DNA of 64,000 nucleotides, taken from contig CANPVS010000004.1 in NCBI GenBank assembly GCA_947581795.1, positions 1 to 64,000 on the forward strand, given 5' to 3'. Below the pieces are notes generated by a model that saw nothing but the letters and a program-made list of their open reading frames with translations, made no database searches and had not been told where the DNA came from. Position 1 is the stretch's first letter; every line of letters starts with the position of its first letter. Source of the DNA: an uncultured Oscillospiraceae bacterium. GTDB taxonomy: Bacteria > Bacillota > Clostridia > Oscillospirales > Oscillospiraceae. The translations under genes were made by a program, and so were the position numbers. Shown one piece after another: positions 4,041-6,413 of the stretch.

Positions 4041-4076
4041 CGGACCTGCCGCGTCTTTTGCGGCAGGTCCGTTTTT
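4041..4076 (+). terminator. Rho-independent terminator of lysA operon
   Basis: A 12-bp perfect stem CGGACCTGCCGC (4041-4052) / GCGGCAGGTCCG (4060-4071) is followed by TTTTT. It lies against the stop of the convergent XRE gene and may serve both. Confidence 0.93.
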
Positions 4077-4077
4077 C

Positions 4078-4422
4078 TCAGCGCAGCTCCCAAAACGAGG
4101 CGGCCATGGTCTGGATGACGTCGCGGATGAAACATTTCTCTCCCGGAGAACAGTCCGCAAGTATCTTGGCAACGTCCTGCTCCAGATAGTTAGAAGCCAC
4201 CGGCAGGCTGTCACAGACCAGTTGGTCCAGGGACACGCCAAGCACGTTGGCGATTTTCACCAGAGAGGGTAGGCTCACCTGTGTGGTCGCCCGCTCGATA
4301 TGGCTGATATTCGAGGTAGCCATATCGATCCGTTCGGCCAATTGTTCCTGCGTCAGTCCTGCCTCCCGGCGAAACCGGCGGATCCGCTGGCCCAGCTGCA
4401 CATAGTTCAACTCAATGGCCAT
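4078..4422 (-). CDS. XRE-family transcriptional regulator
   Basis: 114 aa. Residues about 9-63 form a Cro/cI-type helix-turn-helix (LGQRIRRFRREAGLTQEQLA followed by TSNISHIERATTQVSLPSL). The remaining 50 residues are a short helical tail of unknown role. The start has AGGAGAAG upstream. The 122-bp divergent gap to the 99-aa gene contains a long inverted repeat that is a good candidate for its own operator. It may therefore repress itself and its neighbour. The target gene set is unknown, but the peptide cassette at 4.9-6.4 kb is close. Confidence 0.85.
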   Translation of the reverse strand: MAIELNYVQLGQRIRRFRREAGLTQEQLAERIDMATSNISHIERATTQVSLPSLVKIANVLGVSLDQLVCDSLPVASNYLEQDVAKILADCSPGEKCFIRDVIQTMAASFWELR

Positions 4423-4457
4423 CTTTCTTCTCCTGTGAAAAAATCTGGAAACCTATT

Positions 4458-4522
4458 GTTATTTTAGGCCAACATATGGTAAGATATAATAACTCAAAAG
4501 CCATATTATGTTATAAAATAAC
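4458..4522. promoter_or_regulatory. Operator-like 22-bp inverted repeat in divergent intergenic region
   Basis: Arm 1 (4458-4479) begins GTTATTTTA and ends CATATGG. Arm 2 (4501-4522) begins CCATAT and ends TAAAATAAC. Seventeen of 22 positions are complementary, with outer blocks of 9 bp and 6 bp perfect, and the arms are 21 bp apart. A TATAAT (4485-4490) lies between them. The layout suits a dimeric XRE repressor controlling both flanking genes. Confidence 0.6.
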
Positions 4523-4544
4523 ATTTGGAGTTAGGCCACCACCG

Positions 4545-4844
4545 ATGAGAAAACTTATAATTGCCAGCGGGTTATATACACATACCGGAGCGGTCAGCAC
4601 GCCCCGCCGTCCTTTGAGACTGGGGCAGATCATCTGCGACGGCGAATTGATCGGCTCGCTGCGGGAGCGGCAGGCAGTCACGCTGACCATCGACAACGAT
4701 CAGCATATCATACAGTGCGTCGAGGAACAGCCGCGCGATCCCGGTCGGACCGTCAGTGACGTCGTTCGCATCCCGCCGGGCCAGGAGGACGTCCGCCTGC
4801 GCCTGCAATGGGGCGAGCAGACGCTGTATCTGACCGTCGACTGA
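4545..4844 (+). CDS. Hypothetical protein, 99 aa
   Basis: I do not recognise this family. The protein is soluble by appearance, with many short alternating hydrophobic stretches (LTLTIDNDQHIIQCV, VRLRLQWGEQTLYLTV) that suggest a small beta-sheet domain. The ATG at 4545 is preferred over 4476 because TTTGGAG lies upstream (4524-4530) and 4476 falls inside the operator. It is divergent from the XRE gene and ends at a short palindromic repeat. Lower GC at its 5' end fits an accessory island. Confidence 0.6.
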   Translation: MRKLIIASGLYTHTGAVSTPRRPLRLGQIICDGELIGSLRERQAVTLTIDNDQHIIQCVEEQPRDPGRTVSDVVRIPPGQEDVRLRLQWGEQTLYLTVD

Positions 4845-4852
4845 CACAAAAA

Positions 4853-4875
4853 GCCTCCCCTTGCACAGGGGAGGC
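4853..4875. repeat. Short palindromic repeat (CTCCCCTTGCACAGGGGAG type)
   Basis: The 8-bp stem GCCTCCCC / GGGGAGGC with loop TTGCACA. The same palindrome recurs at 17443-17462 as one end of the DUF559 element, so it belongs to a dispersed family. Here it can also act as a terminator for the 99-aa gene. Confidence 0.7.
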
Positions 4876-4888
4876 AGTATTATATAAC

Positions 4889-4918
4889 AAGGAGCTGCCG
4901 CAGGTGTGGCAGCTCCTT
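4889..4918. terminator. Hairpin after the precursor remnant
   Basis: AAGGAGCTGCC (4889-4899) pairs with GGCAGCTCCTT (4908-4918). An equivalent hairpin sits in the same position after the intact-looking precursor (5965-5990). The two hairpins share their flanks (CCAAAC then GTGAAAAGG or GCGAAAAGG), so they belong to duplicated units. Only four T follow on the plus strand, so terminator strength is uncertain. Confidence 0.5.
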
Positions 4919-4932
4919 TTCACCGTTTGGGA

Positions 4933-5058
4933 TCATTCGCCGAACAGGCTGCCGATCCAAACCCTGAAATCGTCGGTGTAGGTTTGGCCGCCGGCGACGA
5001 TGTCCAGCAGGCCGTCGGACAGCTCTCCGGCCGCGGCCGTCTTCAGCGCGCCGGCCCG
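4933..5058 (-). pseudogene. Remnant of a second Nif11-type peptide precursor
   Basis: Read on the minus strand, this 41-codon frame has no start codon and is preceded at once by TAA (5061-5059). It encodes GELSDGLLDIVAGG followed by a 17-residue tail ending WIGSLFGE. The precursor at 6007-6245 has GELPDDLLEGVAGG and a tail ending FMGSLFGK. The N-terminal half of the leader is missing. Its 5' end overlaps the last 16 nt of the 295-aa gene. Most likely a deletion joined the enzyme gene to the tail of a second precursor. Translational coupling from the overlapping stop is possible but unsupported. Confidence 0.6.
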
Positions 5059-5930
5059 TTATCTCTTTTGTAATGGTAATAAAAATTGAGGGACAGCCTG
5101 TCCTGTTCGTCCAGGGCCAGCCCGAAACCCATGCACATAAACTCCGGATGCCCGACGCTCCACAGCATCAGGCGCCCGATCTGCTCCGCCATGAGCGGGG
5201 CCTCTTTTTCAAACAGCTCTATCAGCCCCTGGTACAGGAAAAATGAGAGCTGAACGTATATCTTGTACTTCTTCTCACCCGTCAGCCAATAGTCCGCGCC
5301 CGCGCCCCAGAGATATCCTCCGCAGTGCCCCAGCGCGGCGCGGGTCATCTGGGAGAGCCGGGCGAAGGCGGGGATGCCGCAGTCCCGCAGATAGTCCAGA
5401 TAGTACTCGTCCGTAAAGTGGTATTTACAGCTCCCGATCCCGGTAGAATAATGGCACTTCAGCACTGTGACGGTATCCCCCGCGGACATACACCCCAGAA
5501 AGTTGAGCGCGCTCAGGTCCTCCGTCTGGCCGTCGGTCACCTTCATGGCGGCCAGATTTCTGATCTCATCGCCGCACAGAGGGAATATCCCGGTGTTCTC
5601 CTGCAGCCAGCGGAACACGTCCTCCATATTCTCCCTTGTCTCATGGGCGAGCCGTACGTCATAGCGAAGCCTCTCCGGGTCTCCCTTGTCCTCCACCATG
5701 GAAACGCTGCGGACCATGTCCTTTTGACGCAGGAACTCGATCATGGGATGGGTCCTCCCCCCACCAGCCTTGTCCGCGTAATAGATCTTGAACGCCGGTC
5801 CATGCCCGCCGTCCGCGGCAAGGTTGACGCCCAGCATGTCCACCCGTCCCTCGACAAAGTCCTCCCTGTGCCGCGCCACGAATTCGTCCAGCGTTTCCAT
5901 CCGTTCCGCCGCTCCTGTCCCACCGGCCAT
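5043..5930 (-). CDS. Putative ABBA-fold peptide prenyltransferase-like protein
   Basis: 295 aa with no signal or membrane segment. No catalytic motif is certain. The pattern of alternating strands with paired basic/aromatic residues (FKIYYADK near residue 48, VTVLKCHY, SCKYHF, YKIYVQLSFF, LSLNFYYHYK at the C-terminus) and the opening LDEFVARHREDFV resemble, from memory, the LynF/TruF/PatF peptide prenyltransferases (about 300 aa, ABBA barrel). It lies just downstream of a Nif11-type precursor on the same strand, the context expected of a peptide-modifying enzyme. The ATG has GGGAGG 7 nt upstream. The family call is inference, and the protein could be an unrelated beta-rich enzyme. Confidence 0.4.
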   Translation of the reverse strand: MAGGTGAAERMETLDEFVARHREDFVEGRVDMLGVNLAADGGHGPAFKIYYADKAGGGRTHPMIEFLRQKDMVRSVSMVEDKGDPERLRYDVRLAHETRENMEDVFRWLQENTGIFPLCGDEIRNLAAMKVTDGQTEDLSALNFLGCMSAGDTVTVLKCHYSTGIGSCKYHFTDEYYLDYLRDCGIPAFARLSQMTRAALGHCGGYLWGAGADYWLTGEKKYKIYVQLSFFLYQGLIELFEKEAPLMAEQIGRLMLWSVGHPEFMCMGFGLALDEQDRLSLNFYYHYKRDNGPAR

Positions 5931-5964
5931 GATATATCCTCCCTATCCTTATGGAATATGACGA

Positions 5965-5990
5965 GGGGCTGCCGAAGATGTGACAGCCCC
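5965..5990. terminator. Hairpin between precursor and the 295-aa gene
   Basis: GGGGCTG (5965-5971) pairs with CAGCCCC (5984-5990). It lies in the 76-nt gap between precursor and enzyme on the minus strand. It may set precursor-to-enzyme mRNA ratio, as hairpins often do after peptide precursor genes. A twin hairpin follows the precursor remnant. Confidence 0.5.
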
Positions 5991-6006
5991 TTTTCGCGGT
6001 TTGGCG

Positions 6007-6245
6007 TTACTTGCCGAACAGACTGCCCATAAACTCTCTCGTCTCCCTAATCCATTGCAAGTTGCCGCCGGCGACACCTTCCAGCAGGTCGTCGGGCAGC
6101 TCGCCGGTCGCGACCGCCTTCACCCGGTCGAATATCTCCTTGGCCTGCTCCAGGGTCAGCTCCTTGCCATACTCCTTGGCAATGGTCAGGACCTCTTCAG
6201 GGGACTTAACCCCCCCCCCAGCTTTTTCAGCATTTCCTCGTTCAT
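6007..6245 (-). CDS. Nif11-like leader peptide precursor, frame interrupted at a G10 tract
   Basis: The ATG (6245-6243) has AGAAGGAGA upstream and starts MNEEMLKKLGGG. A run of ten G (plus-strand C at 6210-6219) then shifts the frame, and translation stops after about 19 codons. With 8 or 11 G it would continue into SPEEVLTIAKEYGKELTLEQ and then GELPDDLLEGVAGG, a leader ending in the double-glycine site used by Nif11/NHLP-type peptides. An 18-residue core NLQWIRETREFMGSLFGK follows. The only uninterrupted frame opens at a GTG (6282) with no ribosome site. The tract is either a phase-variation switch now OFF or an assembly error. Confidence 0.65.
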
Positions 6246-6383
6246 CGGTGTTTCTCCTTCTGAAAATGTATTTGAAACGCACACGCGTCGTTTCCCAACT
6301 TTGTGTTCCGCCTCTTTATACGTCCCCTCCGCCCAAAAGGGCCGGCGCGGAGCAAAATTCTTTCTTTCCTTTTTCTTTTTTAA

Positions 6384-6413
6384 ATTTTACCATGGCCAGA
6401 CCGGCGCTTTCAA
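6384..6413 (-). promoter_or_regulatory. Promoter of the peptide cassette
   Basis: On the minus strand, TTGAAA (6413-6408), 18 bp, TAAAAT (6389-6384). Transcription would start near 6377, about 130 nt before the precursor ATG. This separates the cassette from the ABC operon upstream. Confidence 0.55.

Follow-up and report, generated by a model that had tools for sequence, protein, structure and literature searches.

What is made by a short minus-strand unit in which a Nif11-type peptide precursor stands beside a protein that sequence models fail to recognize? The unit lies at positions 4,933–6,413 of a 64,000-nt stretch (the window) of contig CANPVS010000004.1, from an uncultured Oscillospiraceae bacterium (assembly GCA_947581795.1). 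The original prediction read it as a cassette for a prenylated ribosomally synthesized and post-translationally modified peptide (RiPP), an overall interpretation supported here by the modelled fold of its 295-aa protein and by the pairing of that protein with precursors. We consider it probable that a Nif11-type precursor is prenylated on Trp by an ABBA-type prenyltransferase, under on/off control by a poly-G tract in the precursor gene. Computation supports the fold, the pairing, purifying selection on the enzyme and variation in tract length.

Predicted fold and conservation of the enzyme

The 295-aa protein is predicted to form a ten-stranded α/β barrel, the ABBA (PT-barrel) fold. The fold check proposed with the original prediction came out in its favour: ABBA prenyltransferases made up all 50 matches listed for each of two AlphaFold2 (AF2) models, led by the two clades of the enzyme. 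The two jobs are not independent because both used the same ten sequences, from one genus, in different order. The top structural matches were the small-molecule indole prenyltransferases NotF, FgaPT2, CdpNPT and CymD, with Z-scores above those of the peptide enzymes PatF, PagF, LimF and KgpF. The viral fold library held one match with E < 0.001. A homing-endonuclease identity was dropped on the predicted fold, and the barrel also separates the enzyme from ComQ and PalQ, which have the isoprene-synthase fold; isoprenoid synthases of that type are all-helical.

The proposed likeness to LynF, TruF and PatF thus stands for the predicted fold and fails for the sequence. TIGR04445, the LynF/TruF model, had no match in the window's own genome at E up to 10, and identity to the cyanobactin enzymes LynF, TruF, PatF, PagF, KgpF and LimF is 8–12%. 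Searches against Pfam, NCBIfam, PHROGs and PDB sequences returned chance-level matches only; tblastn against phages and plasmids gave no match and two scans of viral contigs no relative. The motifs K-x-Y, K-x-K-x-Y and N-x-YY, which we take to resemble residues of DMATS enzymes and which are candidates for lining the barrel around a prenyl diphosphate, are invariant on predicted second strands and kept down to 25% identity. The enzyme is under purifying selection, with non-synonymous to synonymous rate ratios (dN/dS) of 0.19–0.37 in the ten pairs computed.

Pairing with precursors

The search for precursors beside enzyme homologues, also proposed earlier, found a leader match within 377 nt of the enzyme in 10/10 intact copies in the genus. 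Enzyme matches occurred in 6/35 genus genomes. In the window's own genome (2.29 Mb), three enzyme copies adjoin three of the five leader matches, which is above chance. The copy in stretch L023 lacks the usual stop and reads on to 330 aa, and two more copies are damaged, one in L025 and one that survives as fragments in L024. Two clades, 46–50% identical, differ in arrangement: the enzyme lies on the precursor strand in clade A (window, L022, L024) and converges with the precursor in clade B. Enzyme copies occupy at least four distinct sites (window/L022; L017; L018/L019/L021/L023; and L020, L024 and L025), a count kept at four or more because the last three have an isomerase neighbourhood in common; that group may itself represent more than one site.

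Beyond the genus, relatives were few. Among 300 genomes drawn evenly from the family, three had matches, all in the same genus and one of them the window's own genome. A search for close relatives with six peptide patterns across 84,980 genomes returned two loci, both in metagenome-assembled genomes of rabbit-gut Oscillospiraceae. Profile searches found the own genome and a weak match in G369 (E 0.0085) among 394 genomes of the order, and, among 393 of the class, G1117 (E 4.9e-6) and a weak, broken match in G1115 (E 9.4e-4, internal stops). A match in G1180, from a second class draw of 381 genomes, was false, lying inside a frame that we take to be FolD-like.

The distant homologue in G1117 (Clostridia; locus L094:6490-9046) is a 280-aa open reading frame (ORF) that aligned at 97.1% in hhalign, with 24% identity over 243 columns (single-pair BLASTP 6e-12). 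It lies ~70 nt 3′ of a gene for a 70-aa peptide with SRPEI-D repeats and the C-terminal sequence GCGVSCCYAQGSDW. Next come genes for a 107-aa protein with a weak, sub-threshold likeness to PqqD (E 0.015) and for a radical SAM protein (E 8.9e-25). This locus, found without precursors as bait, looks from its gene content like a RiPP cluster, whose product is possibly a prenylated, radical-SAM-modified peptide.

Precursor leaders and cores

Intact relatives carry a Nif11 leader ending in GG: of eight, five scored above cut-off with PF07862 and two with TIGR03798, the latter giving E ≤ 1.5e-5 in 8/8. The Nif11-type precursor ending in VAGG that had been claimed for the window is borne out in its leader and cleavage site; the window copy itself scores below the Nif11 cut-offs and is out of frame at a run of 10 G that the original prediction missed. 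Leader matches numbered 35, and one (L025:1732) was left out for want of a VAGG-like site. The 34 precursors counted fall into 16 with an enzyme no more than 1.5 kb away (adjacent) and 18 farther off or without one (unlinked). Trp occurs in 16/16 adjacent and 15/18 unlinked cores and in 0/719 and 0/847 of the respective leader residues (background 0.9%). The 16 adjacent cores include Tyr in 9, Phe in 13 and Cys in 1. Trp is the likely prenyl acceptor, a role for which this composition is only suggestive because unlinked precursors carry Trp too.

Closely related stretches differ in their cores. L017 and L069 are 96% identical on both flanks; L069 lacks the enzyme, and divergence starts within 7 nt of the leader end. 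L018 and L023 differ from the leader end through the end of the enzyme gene. Both pairs (L017:9635-10913 with L069:6276-7054, and L018 with L023) are otherwise 94–96% identical and differ only 3′ of the leader, so that cores appear to have been swapped at the conserved leader, presumably by exchange between loci. Enzymes are absent from L069, L071 and L073 at sites occupied in L017 and L025.

Another type of Nif11-like precursor in the genus, starting like MEQKKIEEFVEKAKQ, occurs in L060, L068, L072 and L074; its neighbours in L074 are a Sel1-repeat-like gene and two genes for ATP-binding cassette (ABC) transporters. Very large Sel1-repeat proteins are encoded near precursors at L017:14301-19652 (1782 aa, 32 repeats) and L020:12705-18305 (1866 aa, 34 repeats). 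We set them aside as cassette partners, as they occur in 3/10 enzyme regions (L017, L020, L024).

A poly-G tract in the leader

The pattern of leader start plus G run was found at 11 sites in 6/35 genus genomes and, among 400 genomes drawn from the family, at none outside the genus. Tracts have 7, 8, 9 or 10 G, leaving 4/11 copies in frame and 7/11 out of frame, and 4 of those 7 have just 7 G. Its codon position is constant across the 11 copies; paralogues have QEAKS-like codons there. In 25 stretches totalling 368,195 bases, a biased sample for such a count, G/C runs of at least 8 numbered nine, seven of them inside these leaders and two elsewhere. Codons 3′ of the tract stay open to the core end in every out-of-frame copy (7/7). 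The window copy and its L022 orthologue, neither of them in frame and each with a different tract, are separated by five synonymous and no non-synonymous changes, and two other pairs in which both copies are out of frame gave ratios of 0.24 (L061/L064) and 0.63 (L071/L073).

In the window, the precursor A frame (6282-6007) is open only with an upstream GTG as start, and the ATG at 6245, behind a ribosome-binding site, yields 19 residues and then a stop; the frame is broken because the leader holds the 10-G run. As at contingency loci, tract length differs between strains and shifts the frame. The simplest reading of these alignments, and a probable one, is that slippage in the tract acts as an on/off device (phase variation), a switch that would be reversible.

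Proposed mechanism

In the mechanism that we propose, the Nif11-type precursor would be made and its leader bound by the product of the adjacent gene, the divergent ABBA-fold prenyltransferase. This enzyme would attach an isoprenyl group, in all probability C5 or C10, to Trp in the short, linear core. Cleavage after the double glycine would then remove the leader, probably on export via an ABC transporter with a C39 peptidase, the gene for which lies at another place in the genome. Slippage in the poly-G run, close to the 5′ end of the leader gene, would set whether a given precursor is made, and in the own genome the precursor beside the window enzyme would be switched off. The steps that we infer are the prenyl transfer itself, the role of Trp as its acceptor, the length of the donor and the route of export.

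Type-1 isopentenyl-diphosphate isomerase would supply the donor dimethylallyl diphosphate. A gene for it adjoins precursors in 5/25 stretches searched (Table 1), scoring above the TIGR02150 (NCBIfam) cut-off in 2/5 and just below it or clipped by a contig end in 3/5. It lies directly 5′ of the precursor on the same strand in L020, L024, L025 and L071 (gaps ~47–78 nt), and 3′ in L065. Of the six enzyme genomes, four have a C39-peptidase gene scoring above cut-off; that of the own genome shares a contig with the L017 enzyme, ~13 kb away from it.

A wider reading, which we hold tentatively and at a little under an even chance, is that these cassettes make prenylated RiPPs of a class of their own, new for gut Bacillota and in general: a divergent ABBA family would act on Trp of linear Nif11 peptides, some of them switched by poly-G tracts and with cores swapped between loci through recombination at the leader, so that a population would produce a changing mixture of lipidated peptides.

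Alternative explanations

Structural and genomic support for the prenylated-RiPP reading is strong as far as predicted models and gene order reach. Several observations weigh against it. An ABBA fold by itself is no proof of a prenyl-transfer reaction; the models were built from only ten sequences of one genus, the same set twice, Foldseek TM-scores were modest (~0.3–0.6), and no prenyltransferase matched at sequence level. Trp is also common in precursors without an adjacent enzyme and so does not mark enzyme substrates, and the clade B enzyme is not co-transcribed with its precursor. The isomerase is absent from the 64-kb window, stands next to just 2/10 intact enzyme copies (L020, L024) and the broken L025 copy, and in two of its five cases occurs in a stretch with no enzyme at all; C39 was not found in 2/6 enzyme genomes, one of them 93% complete. 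Tract lengths were read from draft assembled genomes without sequencing reads, and L018 (out of frame) compared with L019 and L020 (in frame) gave ratios of 0.81 and 0.74, indicating little constraint, fast-changing cores included.

The last two points also speak for a view in which the frameshifts at the poly-G tract come from faulty assembly or mark dead alleles, and the window precursor is a pseudogene, as do the 7/11 copies out of frame and the 5′-truncation of precursor B. Against it stand the codons open downstream in every out-of-frame copy, the solely synonymous changes between the window and L022, the constant codon position of the tract and the scarcity of long G/C runs outside leaders; we regard this explanation as unlikely, if still a serious one. 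Runs of 9–10 G can slip during expression, and polymerase or ribosome slippage could restore the frame so that both products are made constantly. Downstream codons conserved in some out-of-frame pairs would fit this as well, but the four out-of-frame tracts of 7 G are short for slippage, and we think it improbable. If the enzyme instead acted, like many DMATS enzymes, on a small aromatic compound, its proximity to precursors would be incidental or due to shared mobility. The higher structural Z of indole prenyltransferases and the coming and going of cassettes (L069, L071 and L073 against L017 and L025) lean that way, whereas a pairing kept across two diverged clades, both orientations and at least four sites, and a G1117 homologue among peptide, PqqD-like and radical SAM genes lean against it, leaving it with a small probability. 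Smaller still is the chance that the precursors are unmodified double-glycine bacteriocins or signals and their neighbour an immunity or accessory protein with a non-catalytic barrel. Short, linear cores mostly without Cys, many paralogous precursors without an enzyme and a C39 transporter in the genome agree with this, but invariant charged and aromatic residues on barrel strands have no obvious need in a non-catalytic barrel, and at some loci the precursor adjoins a prenyl-diphosphate isomerase gene.

Relation to known systems

The nearest known pairing is MppE/MppC of Moorena producens, in which a Nif11 leader accompanies an ABBA enzyme and Trp is geranylated leader-dependently after LanM cyclisation (PMC12715784). 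The window cassette resembles it in a Nif11-type leader with L-x4-L, a soluble ABBA-type prenyltransferase, here a predicted one, and Trp of a short core as the likely acceptor, and leader-dependent recognition is plausible here too. Unlike the LanM-cyclised MppE, 15/16 enzyme-adjacent cores lack Cys, and no lanthionine synthetase occurs among ten flanking window proteins, the whole genome not having been searched for LanM. The hosts also differ (Bacillota versus a cyanobacterium), and the portion available of that report mentions no G-run switch. Compared with cyanobactin systems, the cassette has a Nif11 leader and no cyanobactin protease among ten neighbours scanned.

In Bacillota, ComQ/ComX and PalQ/PalX are peptide systems prenylated on Trp by enzymes of the isoprene-synthase superfamily (PMC10853753); phylum and Trp of a ribosomal peptide are shared with our cassette, in which prenylation is predicted. 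The tract recalls napR of Neisseria gonorrhoeae, a phase-variable gene for a GG-leader peptide (PMC11798529): in both, a poly-G tract lies in the 5′ part of such a gene and has several lengths among strains. napR is a single gene in another phylum, ours is a dispersed family, and the available napR text mentions neither a prenyltransferase nor a Nif11 leader.

A term search of a 2026 review of peptide prenylation (PMC13290415) gave no mention of Firmicutes, Bacillota, Clostridi-, lanthipeptide, Nif11 or gut, and titles and abstract openings listed in searches of an open-licence library yielded no prenylated gut-Bacillota peptide and no phase-variable RiPP precursor, the nearest being PalQ, MppC and napR. 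The claim that the pairing is new to the phylum agrees with that literature, although cyanobacterial MppE/MppC already provided a case of a Nif11 leader with an ABBA enzyme. What looks new is the phylum, together with the divergent family of the enzyme and the switch. If our reading is right, ABBA-type peptide prenylation would be placed in the mammalian gut microbiota, an enzyme family invisible to the sequence models tried would be added, and an example would be at hand of a slippery tract that, from within the precursor gene, may control whether a RiPP is produced.

Cassette layout and neighbouring genes

Table 1. Cassette features in the window and isomerase genes in related stretches
Feature	Coordinates	Strand	Remarks
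Precursor A, Nif11-type gene	6007..6245 (ATG 6245, stop 6009-6007)	(-)	Leader to VAGG ends 6064; core NLQWIRETREFMGSLFGK; out of frame in window copy
Run of 10 G	6210..6219	(-)	Leader codons 9-12; candidate phase-variation switch, OFF in window
295-aa predicted ABBA-barrel peptide prenyltransferase, new sequence family	5043..5930	(-)	Fold prediction; no Pfam/NCBIfam match
Precursor B, 5′-truncated	4933..5045	(-)	Leader end (L-x4-L, VAGG) and core QTYTDDFRVWIGSLFGE; overlaps enzyme stop codon
Promoter-like site TTGAAA-18-TAAAAT	6384..6413	(-)	Similar sequence upstream of several other cassette copies
Hairpin between precursor A and enzyme gene	5964..5991	(-)	z -3.1; possible attenuator or partial terminator
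Terminator-like hairpin 3′ of precursor B	4885..4923	(-)	z -4.2; repeat of hairpin 3′ of precursor A
Isomerase genes	L020:11193-11759, L024:8742-9308, L025:1-480, L065:6867-7430, L071:665-1225		Adjoin Nif11-type precursors

The order claimed for the unit, a promoter of its own followed by precursor, 295-aa ORF and the tail of a second precursor, was recovered (Table 1). That tail has no ATG, GTG or TTG start. As had been noted, both cores end in GSLFG; the two precursor ends have repeats of 59 nt and 75 nt in common, 83% and 79% identical. Promoter-like sites of the type TTGAAA-18-TAAAAT number 2 in the stretch against 0.8 in shuffles.

The remaining statements about the surroundings also held. 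Ten flanking proteins scanned gave no match to a RiPP cyclase or leader-peptidase family, and the same-strand genes upstream, described as a MacAB-type exporter, match MacB/FtsX, HlyD-like and ABC ATPase models; terminator-like hairpins (9 in the stretch against 1.5 in shuffles) and the promoter-like site lie between them and the cassette, to which the MacB-type genes may be unrelated. On the other side are a helix-turn-helix (HTH) regulator and an unmatched ORF, and the opposite strand at 3380-4036 matches Peptidase_C26/GATase, a glutamine-amidotransferase-class domain. Window positions 4051-4879 (the HTH regulator and a 122-aa ORF) have no counterpart at the matching L022 site, where the alignment shows a gap. 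A conserved block of the 5′ untranslated region (GAAACGACGC..GCGTTTC; window 6274-6294) occupies the same place in other cassettes. In many precursor genes it can fold as a hairpin just 5′ of the ribosome-binding site, with variation in both arms.
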